Below are positions 52,319-60,131 of a stretch of 64,000 nt of DNA, in pieces. The notes beneath the pieces are model-generated. The model was not told where the DNA came from. It saw only the letters and a program-made list of their open reading frames with translations, and did not search any database. The stretch comes from Pedobacter sp. SYSU D00535 (GTDB lineage Bacteria; Bacteroidota; Bacteroidia; Sphingobacteriales; Sphingobacteriaceae): positions 434,001 through 498,000 of the forward strand of contig NZ_JAFEWD010000001.1 of the NCBI RefSeq assembly GCF_017355855.1. The letters run 5' to 3'. Every line of letters begins with the position of its first letter. Position 1 is the stretch's first letter. The position numbers and the translations under genes were made by a program.

Positions 52319-53314
52319 CTAAAAACTTCTGAAACCGATTATCTCTCTCACTTCCCTGATGGTTTTGCCGGCACTTTCCCGGGCTTTCTCAGCTCCTAAC
52401 TTCGCTACTTTGCTTAAGTAATCAGCGTCTGCCGCGATATCAGCAATACGTTCCCTAACAGGAGTGGTAGCAAGGACCATATCTTCTCCCAGCTGCTTTT
52501 TAAAGTCTCCATAGCGGATCTGACATTTGTTATACAAGTCGTCAAAGTGCTTGTACGTGTCAACAGAAGAAACAATCTTCATCAAATCGAATAAATTCTG
52601 AATTGCTTCCGGCTTTGCCTGATTTTCTTCAGTAGGACCACTATCTGTAACTGCCCGCATTACTTTCTTACGTATCACCTCCGGACTGTCGGAGAGATAA
52701 ACCGCATTAGCTTCACCTTCCGATTTTCCCATTTTCCCCTTACCATCTAGTCCGGGCACCTTTACCAGCTTATTGCTGAAACTGAACGCGTAGGGCTCGG
52801 GAAAATATTCAGTTTGATATAATCGGTTAAAGCGATTCCCAAATGTCCGGGCCATTTCCAGATGTTGCTCCTGATCTTTCCCCACAGGCACTTTGGTGGC
52901 TTTATGGATAATAATATCGGCGGCCATCAGCACTGGATAGGTGAGGAGGCCTGCATTCACATTATCCGGCTGCGCTCGAACTTTATCTTTAAATGAAGTA
53001 CTTCGCTCTAGTTCACCGAGATAAGCGTTCATATTCAGAAATAAATATAATTCTGCTATCTGAGGTACATCAGACTGTACATATATGGTAGCCTTTTCTG
53101 GATCAATTCCAGCCGCCAGATACTCAATCAGAACCTGCTTCACATTGCCATGCAAATCATCAGGAGTAGGGTGGGTCGTAAGCGAATGATAATCTGCTAT
53201 AAAAAAGTAACAGTTATATTCATGCTGCATCTTAACAAAATTCTGTACAGCTCCGTAATAATTCCCTAAATGAAGTTTTCCGGTACTTCTGATACCGCTT
53301 ACAACAGTTTCCAT
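52319..53314 (-). CDS. trpS: Tryptophan-tRNA ligase
   Basis: A 331-residue class I aminoacyl-tRNA synthetase. The HIGH-type motif is HLGN in STGKLHLGNYYGAV near residue 12 and the KMSKS-type motif is KMGKSE near 197; the tryptophan pocket blocks YPVLMAADIIIHKA and PVGKDQEQHLEMAR are present. Length is usual for the bacterial enzyme. It is divergent from the acyltransferase gene across only 39 bases, and its candidate -7 element ends six bases before the ATG. Confidence 0.96.
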   Translation of the reverse strand: METVVSGIRSTGKLHLGNYYGAVQNFVKMQHEYNCYFFIADYHSLTTHPTPDDLHGNVKQVLIEYLAAGIDPEKATIYVQSDVPQIAELYLFLNMNAYLGELERSTSFKDKVRAQPDNVNAGLLTYPVLMAADIIIHKATKVPVGKDQEQHLEMARTFGNRFNRLYQTEYFPEPYAFSFSNKLVKVPGLDGKGKMGKSEGEANAVYLSDSPEVIRKKVMRAVTDSGPTEENQAKPEAIQNLFDLMKIVSSVDTYKHFDDLYNKCQIRYGDFKKQLGEDMVLATTPVRERIADIAADADYLSKVAKLGAEKARESAGKTIREVREIIGFRSF

Positions 53315-54580: not shown

Positions 54581-55369
54581 TTATACCGTCATGGCTTCTT
54601 TCCCTTTCATCGAACTGATAAAAGCCGGGATCTTTTCCAGGTAATTTTCCTCACCCATCAATTTCACAAAAGCACTGCCTACAATTGCTCCATTGGCATA
54701 TTCGCTTGCCTTGCTAAAGCTCTTGTTATCTGAAATCCCGAAACCAATCATCGTCGGGTTCTTTAGATTCATCCCCTTAATCCTAGCGAAGTAATCCTCT
54801 ATCTCGTTAGATACCGACAGGTTTTTTCCAGTAGTAGATGATGTACTTAACAGGTAAATAAAACCGTTGCTCAACTCATCGATCTTCCTGATACGAGCCT
54901 CAGAGGTAGTAGGTGTAATTAAGAAAATATTGCTCAGTTTATGTCCCTCGAAACAATCCTTGTACATTTCCTCATACTCGTACATAGGCAGGTCAGGCAC
55001 AATAACACCATCCACTCCAACTTCCGCGCAGGAAGCACAAAAATTTTCTACTCCATATTGCAAGACAGGATTCACATATCCCATCAGCAATACCGGAATG
55101 GAAACACGCTTTCTCAAATCCTTCAGCTGTTCAAAAAGCAGCTTCACCGTCATGCCATTATCTATAGCAGTTTGGGAACTCTTTTGAATTACCGGGCCAT
55201 CTGCCAGCGGATCGGAATAGGGAACGCCAATTTCCAGAAAATCGGCCCCTGCTTTTTCCAGCGCCTCAGCTATATCCAGGGTGCTGTTTAAGTTGGGATA
55301 GCCGGCAGTATAATATATTGAAAGGATATTTCCTTTTTTCTCCTCAAAAAGTTGTTTAAGTCTGTTCAT
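54581..55369 (-). CDS. trpA: Tryptophan synthase alpha subunit
   Basis: A 262-residue TIM-barrel subunit that cleaves indole-3-glycerol phosphate to indole and glyceraldehyde 3-phosphate. Catalytic Glu46 and Asp57 are in FLEIGVPYSDPLADGP; the phosphate-binding loop GFGISDN and GAIVGSAFV are present. It is last in trpD-F-B-A, 30 bases after trpB, and is followed at once by a terminator. Indole passes to TrpB within the complex. Confidence 0.96.
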   Translation of the reverse strand: MNRLKQLFEEKKGNILSIYYTAGYPNLNSTLDIAEALEKAGADFLEIGVPYSDPLADGPVIQKSSQTAIDNGMTVKLLFEQLKDLRKRVSIPVLLMGYVNPVLQYGVENFCASCAEVGVDGVIVPDLPMYEYEEMYKDCFEGHKLSNIFLITPTTSEARIRKIDELSNGFIYLLSTSSTTGKNLSVSNEIEDYFARIKGMNLKNPTMIGFGISDNKSFSKASEYANGAIVGSAFVKLMGEENYLEKIPAFISSMKGKEAMTV

Positions 55370-55399: not shown

Positions 55400-56581
55400 T
55401 TATAATCCGAAATATTTCATATAGGTAGCAAGGTCTTTATCCCCGCGTCCCGATAAGCATACCACCACCGTCTCATCTCCCTTAAACTGCATTTTTTCCA
55501 GATAAGCTAGCGCATGCGAACTTTCAATAGCAGGGATAATTCCTTCCAGCCTTGACAGCTGCAAACCTGCTTCTAACGATTCCTCATCGGTAATACTTAC
55601 ATATTTCGCGCGGGCAGAAGTATGTAGATGTGCATGTTGAGGGCCAATGCCAGGATAATCCAAACCAGCAGAGATGGAATACGGCTCAATCACCTGACCG
55701 TCTTCCGTTTGCATTACGATGGATCTGCTTCCATGCAAAACACCTTCCTTACCCAATGCTGTGGTGGCTGCAGATTCCCCTGTATGAACACCTTTTCCTG
55801 CAGCTTCTACAGCAATTAGTTTCACATCTTCCTGATCCAAGAAATGATAAAACATTCCGATCGCATTACTTCCGCCACCTACACAGGCCATAACATAGTC
55901 GGGGTTTGGTTTGCCTATTTTTTCGGTCAGTTGCTTCCGGGTTTCCTCAGAAATAATCGCCTGGAACCTCGCTACCATATCCGGGTAGGGGTGAGGGCCT
56001 ACTACAGAGCCGATAATATAATGGGTGTCAACAGGGTTATTGATCCAGTCCCGGAGCGCTTCATTTGTCGCGTCTTTCAGTGTCTGGCTTCCTGAGGTTG
56101 CCGGAATTACAGTTGCACCCATCATTTTCATCCGGGCTACATTCGGAGCTTGACGTTCAATATCCACAGCTCCCATGTAAACCACGCACTCGATGCCTTT
56201 TAGCGCACAAACAGTTGCAGTTGCTACACCGTGCTGGCCGGCTCCTGTTTCGGCAATAATTCTTTTTTTACCTAAACGCTGCGCAAGCAGGATCTGGCCT
56301 ACGGTATTGTTAATTTTGTGAGCGCCCGTGTGGTTAAGATCTTCACGCTTCAAATAAATGTTGGCGCCATATTTCTCAGACAATCGCTTAGCGAAATAGA
56401 GCGGAGAAGGACGACCCACATAATCACGAAGGAGTTCCTGAAACTCTTCCTGAAAGGCAGGTTCAGCCATGATCTTCAAATAATTGTCCCGTAATTCTTC
56501 AACGTTTGGATACAACATTTCGGGGATGTAAGCCCCGCCAAAGTTTCCATAGTATCCTTTTTCATTTACATGATAACTCAT
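55400..56581 (-). CDS. trpB: Tryptophan synthase beta subunit
   Basis: A 393-residue PLP enzyme that condenses indole with serine to give tryptophan. Lys89 in HTGAHKINN binds [27 protein letters not shown] and CLSGRGDKD are the usual phosphate and catalytic blocks. Sequence type is TrpB1, the form that works with TrpA. It follows trpF by ten bases. Confidence 0.97.
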
Positions 56582-56591
56582 ATGTATAAGT

Positions 56592-57239
56592 TTATTCGCT
56601 TAAGTGCGCCTGTTTTAATTTATCAATTACCGAACCCAGCAACTCTATGTTTTTTAGTCCCGGTCTAACTTCAAATCTACTATTCAGATCAACTGCATAG
56701 AGCCGGTCGTCGTCTAGAGTTATTACCTCGAGAACATTTTCTGCAGACAGTCCGCCGCTCAAGAAATAAGGGACATTCAATTGATATTTCGTCAGCAACG
56801 ACCAATTAAATGTTTCCCCCGACCCGCCATGTGCTACAGTTTTAGTATCGAAAAGAAAATAGTCGACCGCTTTAGTATAACTATCTAAAACTGTAAACTG
56901 GAAGTCTGGGTCCACTCCAAATGCCTTGATAACTTCAAATCCTTTGTTTTTTAATACTGAGCAAAATTCCGGAGACTCCTGTCCGTGCAGCTGTAATGCA
57001 TCTAATTTAAACTCTTCAGCTTTGGCCTCAACCTCGGCTAAGCTGCTATTCACAAATACGCCAGTCTTCTTAATTGATGAAGGAAGATGAGCCAAAGTCT
57101 CAAGGTCTAGTGCCTCCACAAATCTTTTTGAAGCAGGATAGAAAATAAAGCCCATGTAGTCGGGTCGTAGATTTGCCAGATCATTAATATTCGACGGTTC
57201 ACGCATTCCGCAAACCTTTATTTTTAACGACCTAATCAT
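56592..57239 (-). CDS. trpF: Phosphoribosylanthranilate isomerase
   Basis: A 215-residue TIM-barrel enzyme that isomerises N-(5-phosphoribosyl)anthranilate by Amadori rearrangement. Catalytic Cys11 is in [10 protein letters not shown] and the acid in [20 protein letters not shown] and [12 protein letters not shown] are family blocks. Its start overlaps the trpD stop by one base. trpC, usually between trpD and trpF, is absent here. Confidence 0.95.
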
Positions 57240-58231
57240 TATTTCACCGCTATTAATCTATTGAAACTTGTTAAGGCCCGTTTGCTTAGTAGCGACTCTT
57301 CTGCTTCATAAAAACAATCAGCGAACGATTTAGTATCATCAACGGTTTTAATAGCAATAGCTGCATTACATAAAACCACATTATTTTGAGCAGTTGTTCC
57401 TTCTCCCTTTAAAACGTCTATAAAGATCCTAGCCGACTCCTCTACCGTATTTCCGCCGCCTATCTGCCTAGCAGATATCCGTTCAAAACCTAACCTTTCT
57501 ATAGAGTAGATATGCTCGCCCCGGTGAGAAAACGTTTTAAAGTTTCCTGTTAGTGATATTTCATCATATCCATCAAGAGCATGCAATATGGTATATTTCT
57601 TATCAGACTTCTGATAGAGATAGGCATAAATACGGGCTAGCTCCAAACTGAAAACTCCAACCGACTGATACTCGGGAAGAGCTGGGTTAACGAGCGGACC
57701 CAACATGTTGAAAAAGGTTTTTACAGCTAGTTCCTTTCGGATAGGTGCCACATTTTTCATGGCCGGATGAAAAAGGGGAGCATGTAAAAAGCAAATCCCG
57801 GCTTCTTCTACACTTTGCCGAAGCTTTGCAGCATCGTTCGTGAACTGATATCCCAAAAACTCCATCACGTTTGAAGAACCACACCCGGAAGAAACCCCGT
57901 AGTTACCATGTTTAGCAACTTTATATCCAGCGCCTGCAGTAACGAAAGAAGCCAGCGTAGAGATATTGAAGGTATCTTTTCCATCGCCACCCGTGCCACA
58001 AAGATCGATGAGGCTATACCCTTCCAAACCTGGAGAAAGACAAAGATCAAGCATAGCATCTCTAAACCCTTCCAACTCTTCAACAGTGATACTTCTCATA
58101 CAATAGGCCGTCATGAACGCTGCCATCTGCGAGTTGTTAAACTTTCCGGTAGTTATATTTTTTAATATACTTTTCGCTTCTCCCTTAGTAAAGGTTTTGT
58201 GTTCAAACAGGTGATTTAAAATATCTTTCAT
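57239..58231 (-). CDS. trpD: Anthranilate phosphoribosyltransferase
   Basis: A 330-residue enzyme that transfers phosphoribose from PRPP to anthranilate. The PRPP motif is DLCGTGGDGKDTFNIST near residue 82, with KHGNYGVSSGCGSSNVME and FNMLGPLVNPA. It is the first gene after the trp leader and attenuator terminator, which ends 27 bases before its ATG. trpE and trpG are not adjacent. Confidence 0.96.
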   Translation of the reverse strand: MKDILNHLFEHKTFTKGEAKSILKNITTGKFNNSQMAAFMTAYCMRSITVEELEGFRDAMLDLCLSPGLEGYSLIDLCGTGGDGKDTFNISTLASFVTAGAGYKVAKHGNYGVSSGCGSSNVMEFLGYQFTNDAAKLRQSVEEAGICFLHAPLFHPAMKNVAPIRKELAVKTFFNMLGPLVNPALPEYQSVGVFSLELARIYAYLYQKSDKKYTILHALDGYDEISLTGNFKTFSHRGEHIYSIERLGFERISARQIGGGNTVEESARIFIDVLKGEGTTAQNNVVLCNAAIAIKTVDDTKSFADCFYEAEESLLSKRALTSFNRLIAVK

Positions 58232-58257: not shown

Positions 58258-58286
58258 AAAAAAAAAGGTTGCCTTAAGAGCAACCC
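58258..58286 (-). terminator. Attenuator terminator before trpD
   Basis: On the minus strand GGTTGC (58285-58280) pairs with GCAACC (58272-58267) around a seven-base loop TCTTAAG, followed by nine T (58266-58258). It lies between the Trp-rich leader peptide and trpD, so it controls entry into the operon. Confidence 0.85.
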
Positions 58287-58327
58287 TGTTTATTTTTAGA
58301 AACATATACATGCAGAGGGCCCCTCGA

Positions 58328-58375
58328 TTAATCGAAGTTCCACCACCAAATATATACGTTGCTTAGTACCATCAT
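58328..58375 (-). CDS. trpL: trp operon leader peptide with three consecutive Trp codons
   Basis: A 15-codon frame reading MMVLSNVYIWWWNFD followed by TAA. The three TGG codons in a row are at 58348-58340. A second ATG at 58372 could also be the start. It sits directly after a -33/-7 promoter and 42 bases before the terminator preceding trpD. Ribosome stalling on these codons when charged tRNA-Trp is scarce should affect folding of the RNA that follows. The leader itself has a TCGATTAATCGA palindrome over its stop codon. AGCAAC in codons 5-6 is complementary to GTTGCT of the terminator and is the only antiterminator partner I found; the exact alternative structure is unresolved. Confidence 0.85.
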   Translation of the reverse strand: MMVLSNVYIWWWNFD

Positions 58376-58385
58376 TATTAGGTTG

Positions 58386-58417
58386 CAAAGATGAAGAAAG
58401 TTTTAATGAAAGCAAAA
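58386..58417 (-). promoter_or_regulatory. Promoter of the trp leader/trpDFBA operon
   Basis: On the minus strand TTTTG (58417-58413) is followed after 19 bases by CATCTTTG (58393-58386), one mismatch from TAnnTTTG. The expected start of transcription is a few bases before the trpL ATG. Confidence 0.7.
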
Positions 58418-58484: not shown

Positions 58485-59126
58485 TCAGGCAGCAGTATAA
58501 AACTCCTCCTTTTCGGTAGTATGAACCCGGATGACTCCCGAAAGCACCAGATTTACCAATATTTTCTGAGCTCTTCTCCTCGACAGGTTCAGCATTTTGC
58601 TGTATTCTTTAGCTGTAATTCTTTCGTTCTCGTCCAGATATTCCAAAAGGGCTTTTTCCTTACTTGAATATTCAATAAGAACACCCTCGTCCTTTGAACT
58701 TCCTTTTAGTACATCCACCACGATTTTGCTGGCCAGGAGACTTTTATCTTTCACGCGAACGTAAACCCACCACTTTTTATCCTCGCCCAGGGCGTAATGC
58801 GGTTTCATGTCGCTTTCTTTAATTTCGGCTACAAGCACAATTTTACCATCAAAATAGATCTCTTCGAACAAAGGCTCTAGAGCTGGGCGACAAAAGAACG
58901 TGCCAGCCTTGGTAAGCATATACTTTTCTTCATCTTCTGACTTTACCCCCTTAATGTCGCCGTTGTCGGCAACGCCAACCAATAATCGGCCGCCTTTATT
59001 ATTTGCGAATGAAACCATTGTTTTAGCAATCTTCTCACAAGATGTAATCGTCTTTTTAAAGTCGACGTTTACACCTTCTCCCTCAAATATTAATTGCTTT
59101 ATATGGTAAGGCTTTAAATTACTCAT
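58485..59126 (-). CDS. AlbA_2/Schlafen-type ATP-binding domain protein with winged helix
   Basis: A 213-residue protein. The AlbA_2 (divergent AAA-4) domain occupies about 10-135, with EGVNVDFKKTITSCEKIAKTM, SFANNKGGRLLVGVADNGDI, and VYVRVKDKSLLAS. A winged helix follows (about 150-210; ITAKEYSKMLNLSRRRAQKIL). Proteins of this type are probable nucleic-acid-binding regulators; no target is known. It ends before the trp promoter on the same strand, with no clear terminator. Confidence 0.85.
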   Translation of the reverse strand: MSNLKPYHIKQLIFEGEGVNVDFKKTITSCEKIAKTMVSFANNKGGRLLVGVADNGDIKGVKSEDEEKYMLTKAGTFFCRPALEPLFEEIYFDGKIVLVAEIKESDMKPHYALGEDKKWWVYVRVKDKSLLASKIVVDVLKGSSKDEGVLIEYSSKEKALLEYLDENERITAKEYSKMLNLSRRRAQKILVNLVLSGVIRVHTTEKEEFYTAA

Positions 59127-59750: not shown

Positions 59751-60131
59751 ATGAAAACTAAAGCTTTGAAACTTGCAATCGCATCACTTGGAATTGCATT
59801 TTCGGTGGCTGCCTGCTCAGGAGGCCAAAACAATAACGCGACCGATACAGCCGGAACAGAAGACGGCTTAGGTACGGATACCATGATGACCGACACAGCC
59901 GGAACCGGTACTGCACCAGGCGGTGGAGTTGGAGAAGGTGGTATTGGTACTGGTACTGGTACTGACACCGGTGGAACTGGTACTGGAACAGGTACAGGCA
60001 CTGGAACCGGCACAGGTGGAACTGGTACTGGTACAGGTACAGGCGGAACTGGAACCGGAACTGGAACTGGAACCGGAACTGGAACTGGAACTGGAACCGG
60101 AACTGGAACTGGTACGACTCCAGCACCTTAA
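59751..60131 (+). CDS. Lipoprotein with long Gly-Thr repeat tail
   Basis: A 126-residue lipoprotein. Lipobox SVAAC places the lipidated Cys at residue 22, followed by a short Asn/Asp/Thr-rich part; from about residue 65 to 121 it is almost only Gly-Thr pairs, ending TTPAP. The tail must be flexible and has no fold I recognise. The coding sequence is a degenerate six-base repeat (GGNACN), so slippage would change length by Gly-Thr pairs without shifting frame. A terminator follows. Confidence 0.75.
   Translation: MKTKALKLAIASLGIAFSVAACSGGQNNNATDTAGTEDGLGTDTMMTDTAGTGTAPGGGVGEGGIGTGTGTDTGGTGTGTGTGTGTGTGGTGTGTGTGGTGTGTGTGTGTGTGTGTGTGTGTTPAP
59945..60112 (+). repeat. Degenerate hexanucleotide repeat GGNACN inside the lipoprotein gene
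   Basis: Units such as GGTACT, GGAACT and GGAACC recur with a six-base period, interrupted by a few extra Gly codons. Third-base variety shows selection on the Gly-Thr protein pattern as well as possible recent slippage in the nearly uniform 3' part. Confidence 0.85.

Follow-up and report, generated by a model that had tools for sequence, protein, structure and literature searches.

The trpDFBA operon on the minus strand of the window (the whole 64,000-nucleotide stretch of DNA analysed) is, with a probability of about 0.93, controlled by a ribosome-mediated transcription attenuator in which a 1:2 / 2:3 / 3:4 switch downstream of the Trp codons of a short leader frame would decide whether transcription reaches trpD, a reading based on sequence comparison and folding models. 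By kind this appears to be an ordinary, well-supported Trp attenuator; what seems unusual is its place, before trpD in a split pathway. The genes concerned are the following.

57239-58231, minus strand: trpD, anthranilate phosphoribosyltransferase (NCBIfam TIGR01245, 301.9 bits, above cut-off)
56592-57239, minus strand: trpF, phosphoribosylanthranilate isomerase (best NCBIfam models TrpF, below their curated cut-offs)
55400-56581, minus strand: trpB, tryptophan synthase beta (NCBIfam TIGR00263, 598.1 bits)
54581-55369, minus strand: trpA, tryptophan synthase alpha (NCBIfam TIGR00262, 242.8 bits)

The region before trpD holds these elements.

58413-58417, minus strand: -33 element TTTTG, read in the sequence
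58386-58393, minus strand: -7 element CATCTTTG, one mismatch to TAnnTTTG, read in the sequence
58328-58375, minus strand: leader ORF MMVLSNVYIWWWNFD, 15 codons followed by the TAA stop (within the coordinates), read in the sequence
58350-58360 with 58311-58301, minus strand: outer helix enclosing the Trp codons, AACGTATATAT with ATGTATATGTT, from the minimum free energy (MFE) fold
58340-58348, minus strand: three tandem Trp codons TGGTGGTGG (TGG TGG TGG), read in the sequence
58332-58337, minus strand: segment 1, CTTCGA, pairing with TCGAGG at 58327-58322 (candidate anti-antiterminator 1:2), from the MFE fold
58316-58325, minus strand: segment 2, GAGGGGCCCT, candidate antiterminator strand, pairing with segment 3 with one mismatch
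58278-58287, minus strand: segment 3, AGGGTTGCTC, terminator 5' arm and target of segment 2
58258-58273, minus strand: segment 4, terminator 3' arm and nine-T run, from the terminator scan and alignment

The TTTTG and CATCTTTG elements lie 19 bases apart and form a promoter-like pair of the Bacteroidota type. The leader opens with ATGATG, 10 nt 3' of the -7 box, its second ATG falling at 58372; the terminator stem lies inside 58287-58265, with nine T at 58266-58258 on the minus strand and 26 bases between the T run and the trpD ATG (58231). The tandem-Trp frame, the hairpin with nine T and the promoter with its 19-base spacing, all named in the first-pass annotation, were each recovered when the minus strand before trpD was re-read. 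The nearly leaderless start proposed there agrees with the short distance from the -7 box to the leader ORF, given the transcription start site (TSS) that this box would predict.

In the proposed mechanism, RNA polymerase would start the transcript a few bases 5' of the leader ATG, giving an almost leaderless RNA on which a ribosome would load. With ample Trp-tRNA, the ribosome would reach the UAA codon and cover segment 2, the 3:4 terminator would form, and transcription would stop before trpD. With scarce Trp-tRNA, it would stall on UGGUGGUGG and mask segment 1; segment 2 would then capture segment 3 ahead of the synthesis of segment 4, leaving no terminator, and trpDFBA would be transcribed. 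In the absence of translation, 1:2 would form and termination would be the default. The ORF, the promoter match, the terminator, their conservation, the helices and the switchable pairing in folding can all be read from sequence, and from these we infer the transcript start, the translation of the frame, the stalling and the response to tryptophan.

Taken alone, the single elements of the window (tandem Trp codons, a terminator-like site) could arise by chance. The 64 kb contain a single TGGTGGTGG where 0.27 would be expected, and 25 of 100 shuffles contain at least one; a scan of 1.4 kb on the two strands gave four terminator-like sites, the expectation being 1.2. None of 200 shuffles folds as stably as 58380-58256 (z -3.26). 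Conservation, as judged from related sequences, is what raises the window leader above chance. A protein search with trpD returned 578 relatives, and the best 80 of these 578 loci, with titles naming Mucilaginibacter or Pedobacter in most cases and Sphingobacterium, Olivibacter or a less exactly named relative in some, were kept. A short WW frame precedes trpD in 78 of the 80 (WWW in 76; one with a GTG start); in the other two (L013, L064) the contigs end, and the sequence reaches just 183 and 204 nt 5' of trpD. An intrinsic terminator lies 3' of the Trp frame in all 78 relatives as well as in the window. The comparative alignment of leaders proposed in the first pass was run: the leaders align, and their conserved frame and terminator support the Trp-codon leader-peptide attenuator suggested there for trpDFBA.

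The promoter and the gene order are conserved as well. A -7 box with TTTG, followed 5-17 nt on (median 10) by the start codon, is present in 78 of 79 leaders, the window included (L078 is the sole exception), and 76 of the 78 leaders with a box have a TTG-containing element 17-22 nt 5' of it. Should the TSS fall a few bases 3' of the -7 box, the trpD leaders would be leaderless or nearly so. The order of genes is trpDFBA in 70 of the 80 loci, trpDFB in eight and trpDF in two, three of the ten loci other than trpDFBA being short. In seven Mucilaginibacter trpDFB loci (L014, L016, L020, L026, L028, L031, L032), trpA is absent within 5 kb after trpD, which represents a further break of the pathway. 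Two elements between the leader and the gene were noted by eye: a palindrome of the CCCCCTTTAGGGGG type, situated 3' of the terminator and 5' of trpD in many loci from Mucilaginibacter and related organisms (L005, L008, L012, L017, L022, L023, L028, L029, L035, L039), and a TTCTGAA...TTCAGAATGACG-like element before trpD in Pedobacter L041, L051, L057, L064 and L068.

With regard to neighbouring genes, trpS (52319-53314, minus strand) lies on the same strand, 1.3 kb past trpA, and has no WWW leader in the window, because TGGTGGTGG is found there once only. The gene 5' of the leader (58488-59126, minus strand) carries an SLFN_AlbA_2 domain and a winged helix (Pfam) and is unrelated to trp. An ORF at 59751-60131 on the plus strand is lipoprotein-like with a long Gly-Thr repeat, and there are open frames on the opposite strand too.

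The geometry of the antiterminator decides between two forms of attenuator. The first-pass annotation had looked to AGCAAC, located in the leader 5' of the Trp codons, as the strand that would capture GTTGCT, a geometry different from that of Escherichia coli. In the window this upstream duplex reaches -8.3 kcal/mol (z -3.04), and the downstream duplex of segments 2 and 3 reaches -10.6 kcal/mol (z -2.61). Across the 78 distinct leaders, the codons 5' of WWW pair with terminator arm 3 better than shuffles (p<0.05) in just two, the window and L043 (mean z -0.14), against 54 of 78 for segment 2 with arm 3 relative to dinucleotide shuffles (mean z -2.41), so the unusual geometry was abandoned. Moreover, AGCAAC pairing would act the wrong way round: this strand would lie under any ribosome that stalls on the Trp codons, and stalling would favour termination. 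An attenuator built on the upstream strand is thus considered highly improbable, and the reading with segment 2 downstream of the Trp codons is retained. The remaining helices were examined in the same set of leaders. Taken alone, the 1:2 hairpin is better than its shuffles in 29 of 78 leaders, the window (z -0.59) not being among them. The outer helix is present in the MFE fold but beats shuffles (p<0.05) in 12 of 78 leaders and was retained as a minor part. In the alignment of 78 distinct rows, in which one leader group appears shifted by one column in a way that would lower the counts of pairing and compensation, compensated changes occur at five of seven pairs of helix 1:2; helix 3:4 has 97.4% of cells paired and five of nine pairs compensated. 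Together, 1:2 and 3:4 have 91.1% of cells paired versus at most 47.5% when slid, with both-side changes at 10 of 16 pairs. For helix 2:3, 85.8% of cells are paired versus at most 51.4% when slid, and no covariation beyond shuffles was found (156 of 500 shuffles reach its score), as may be expected (which is no proof) if arm 3 must pair with two partners.

Ribosome-masked folding of nascent RNA, with a 29-nt footprint at W1, W2 or W3, reproduces the predicted switch. The mean P(2:3) over the 78 leaders is 0.83 in the stalled state, 0.14 with the ribosome at the stop codon and 0.16 without a ribosome, with values above 0.5 in 77, 4 and 10 leaders, respectively; the window gives 0.80-0.83, 0.05 and 0.02. 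A full switch, defined by both P(2:3) differences exceeding 0.5, is found in 58 of 78 leaders versus 7.6% of 780 copies whose middle segment was shuffled. For the window alone, ten middle-shuffled copies masked at W2 give P(2:3) of 0.21-0.83, seven of them above 0.5. Since its own shuffles often reach this level, the family and not the window alone carries the argument for the switch, and the helix evidence from the window by itself is modest. In full-length RNA at equilibrium, the terminator dominates in every ribosome state on average (mean P(3:4) 0.92-0.98), and in the window it holds at 0.88-0.89 even with a stalled ribosome; the switch must therefore be kinetic, as in classical attenuation. 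This dominance would also suit a translated leader that acts chiefly through coupling, Rho or mRNA stability, the hairpin being an ordinary terminator of partial efficiency, to which the conserved, compensated 1:2 helix and a family-wide switching far above shuffles leave a slim chance. It is very unlikely, too, that a protein or ligand (TRAP-like, T-box or riboswitch) reads the leader RNA and that the short frame is incidental, given that the Trp codons are kept in frame in 78 of 80 loci despite varying flanking codons and that no Rfam family, T-box and riboswitch families included, matches the window at its gathering threshold, the best family below threshold being a Trp peptide leader. With attenuation by a stalling ribosome as the preferred reading, the leader presents the arrangement of the classical trp-type attenuator: tandem cognate codons before the operon, an intrinsic terminator before the first gene, 2:3 pairing downstream of the cognate codons and, family-wide, a competing 1:2 helix.

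In the same genome, trpE-trpG-trpC (trpG assigned by position and its own sequence) lies on another contig, and trpE is preceded by MLDSLHTKIWWWQATACAG (WWW) and by a terminator, CCCGACG-CGTCGGG plus T. The location of this region is given below.

L085, contig C17:45113 to about 44979, minus strand: leader region of trpE-trpG-trpC, with the genome's second WWW frame and a terminator

A covariance model built from the trpD leaders (R1) scores 72.3 bits on the window leader, and its second match in the genome is the trpE leader (25.9 bits, E 0.53). A pattern search of this genome that required a T run no more than 60 bases from TGGTGGTGG gave no match because the actual spacing is longer. Among 101 genomes of the family, R1 matches (E<=0.1) in 97 and trpE (E<=1e-60) is present in 93; the eight without trpE comprise the four lacking an R1 match and four with weak R1 matches. 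Weak matches (E 0.028-0.049) also occur in G002, G024, G029 and G040, where trpE is present. All 30 of 30 best R1 loci hold trpD, and among 20 further R1 matches that were fetched, 11 coincide with a Trp frame preceding trpE, the other nine being terminators that lack such a frame; a match without any Trp frame can reach 46.8 bits (G042:C58). Upstream regions of trpE were read in 90 of the 93 genomes, the leaders being picked by frame and W motif, with several regions holding an extra incidental WW frame. A WW frame was found in 75 (WWW in 46) and W-x-W in 12 more (TWLWQ, TWQWP and TWHWR among them: L158, L189, L190, L195, L197, L198, L208, L225, L226, L228, L229 and L233). No Trp-rich leader was found before trpE in the remaining three (L182, L204, L210), all of one genus, g3, for which, with only weak R1 matches, a loss of both attenuators is possible. 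The 80 trpD loci, 75 of which extend 5 kb upstream, gave no match to trpE, trpG or trpC. In the genomes sampled, almost the entire family thus appears to have a split trp pathway with two parallel leaders.

Leaders of this kind are already represented in Rfam by RF01692 (Bacteroid-trp), a Bacteroidete tryptophan peptide leader RNA listed in Table 1 of Weinberg et al. 2010 (PMC2864571). The window leader shares that family's trait of a trp gene preceded by a short ORF that contains tandem Trp codons. RF01692, the best of all Rfam families on it, gives a tentative collinear alignment over the full model (positions 1-131) at 25.3 bits (E=1 in a 351-base search), below the 49-bit cut-off, so that the leader is not counted as a formal member. 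When the entire genome was scanned, the RF01692 matches listed did not include the window leader, and the best of them (26.1 bits) lie elsewhere. Among the 101 family genomes, RF01692 matches at E<=0.1 in 47 and exceeds the cut-off in four; 46 of the 47 matches sit on the R1 leader, as compared by eye, the exception being G044, which lacks trpE. Like the RF01692 motif, the window leader has tandem UGG codons with a comparable outer helix around them, whereas the model stops at terminator arm 3 without the whole terminator. The lack of any Rfam match at the gathering threshold had at first suggested an undescribed kind of leader, a notion dropped because RF01692 describes the kind. From this comparison, the trpD leaders are judged to be relatives of the RF01692 motif, mostly below its threshold.

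As regards E. coli trpL (Rfam Trp leader RF00513), the likeness lies in the Trp codons, in the 1:2 / 2:3 / 3:4 logic and in a stop codon placed so that a terminating ribosome covers segment 2. The window leader differs in an almost leaderless ORF, in a segment 1 that begins after the Trp codons, in preceding trpD and not trpE, and in a possible extra outer helix. Vitreschak et al. 2004 reportedly mention attenuators in Bacteroidetes/Chlorobi. In Sinorhizobium meliloti, the trpL ORF also stands at the RNA 5' end and the trp operons are separate, but of three operons only trpE(G) is attenuated, whereas here both halves have a leader (PMC7298713). Actinobacterial trp attenuators share double or triple UGG codons, and in Corynebacterium diphtheriae candidate attenuators are given before both trpB1EDGC and trpB2A; they belong to another phylum and differ in their GC-rich terminators and their sequences (PMC1262725). 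Within the same phylum, the study of Flavobacterium psychrophilum reports 'strong clues' that leader peptides attenuate amino-acid operons, and 5.5% leaderless mRNAs; a search of its text gave no mention of trp or tryptophan, and its passages on attenuation give no antiterminator (PMC9723704). Naville and Gautheret 2010 describe leader peptides as shown in Proteobacteria and Actinobacteria only (PMC2965389). In the open-access literature, the titles and abstract openings among the matches listed describe neither a trpD leader, nor paired leaders, nor an antiterminator that captures the terminator loop.

Beyond the family, a phylum draw of 128 genomes was analysed, in which f1-f30 are family labels. 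RF01692 matches in 14 of the 128 and exceeds its cut-off in eight, 11 of the 14 being f4; at the cut-off it passes one of six loci scanned, an f4 trpE leader (63.6 bits versus 49). These matches, together with those of Flavo-1, suggest that f4 is Flavobacteriaceae; a Flavo-1 RNA (RF01705, 58.5 bits) lies between trpE and trpG at L241:2921-2993 on the minus strand. In the draw, 112 of 128 genomes have trpE (E<=1e-50). In other families of the same class, all 23 loci have a WWW leader before trpE; trpG follows trpE in all 23 and trpD lies within the locus in 21, so that one leader can serve the unsplit genes. Among out-of-class genomes with trpE, 58 of 84 were read, and WW frames stand before trpE in L261 and L262, in 24 of a set of 40, for which 0.02 chance frames are expected per region, and in 14 of 16 (absent from L305 and L306). 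One of the 24, in L269, is probably incidental, and the 23 credible ones span nine families (f11, f12, f14, f17, f18, f19, f21, f23, f27). In the same 40 regions no WW frame was found for f10, f13, f15, f16, f24, f26, f28, f29 and one of two f12, f29 (L278) having a W-x-W candidate. As for position, trpE leaders of the family start 5-10 nt after the -7 box in 75 of the 81 having a box (six at 32-33 nt), those of other same-class families start within 17 nt in 13 of 22 (the rest at 18-35), and out of class a box was found in 6 of 27. Near-leaderlessness of the Trp leaders is therefore indicated for the family rather than for the phylum. For comparison, 5' UTRs of less than 10 nt make up only about 3.7% of those in Bacteroides thetaiotaomicron (PMC7366714).

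Two antiterminator designs can be distinguished among these leaders by what segment 2 pairs with (p<0.05 versus shuffles). In f21, its partner is arm 3 in all 15 leaders and the loop plus proximal arm 4 in none; in f11, the counts are 4/4 and 2/4. In f14, arm 3 is paired in 0/10 and the loop plus proximal arm 4 in 9/10, and in f4 in 0/11 and 7/11, respectively. The loop-capturing trpE leaders, whose leader end is complementary to the loop and the proximal 3' arm, are as follows.

f14: L261-L264, L298-L300, L307-L309
f4: L241-L248, L251

The partners covary in f14 (CTCAGTGA/TCACTGAG, CCCGGTGAAT/ATTCACCGGG, CTCTCAGTGG/CCGCTGAGAG), and the stop codon of many f4 leaders falls within or partly within the segment GTCGTGA. 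A ribosome at the stop codon would cover this segment, and a stalled one would free it, the logic being kept with another target; alternatively, this segment could form a pseudoknot that tunes the terminator. We know of no described amino-acid attenuator with a loop-capturing antiterminator. Within the family, trpE leaders pair with arm 3 in 38/82 versus 10/82 with the loop plus arm 4, and trpD leaders in 54/77 versus 3/77; the window leader is of the arm-3 design. A coarser first test gave weaker contrasts, with arm 3 in 4/23 and loop plus arm 4 in 10/23 for other same-class trpE leaders, and 16/25 and 7/25 out of class. A within-lineage swap of partners was mildly informative, the own-partner percentile (0.5 = chance) being 0.19 for the f14 loop, 0.35 for f14 arm 3, 0.36 for f21 arm 3, 0.40 for the f4 loop and 0.46 for f4 arm 3. 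Considering these results jointly, we lean slightly towards a scenario in which Trp-codon attenuation is ancient in the phylum, the operon break in Sphingobacteriaceae gave or left trpDFBA an almost leaderless attenuator of its own, with two parallel switches, and two antiterminator designs exist, one capturing arm 3 (window, f21, f11) and the other the loop and the start of the 3' arm (f14, f4).

Trp leaders occur widely in the phylum and are under-annotated; most escape the Rfam model (4/101 in the family and 8/128 in the phylum draw exceed its cut-off), and many are therefore probably unannotated. Ribosome-mediated attenuation requires a ribosome close to RNA polymerase. According to the flavobacterial study, genes of flavobacteria are by and large without Shine-Dalgarno sequences (PMC9723704). 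A phylum poor in such sequences, with Sphingobacteriaceae Trp leaders near the -7 box, would offer a natural test of transcription-translation coupling outside Proteobacteria. In addition, two parallel leaders on a split pathway would indicate that the break-up of an operon can be offset by a second control element.
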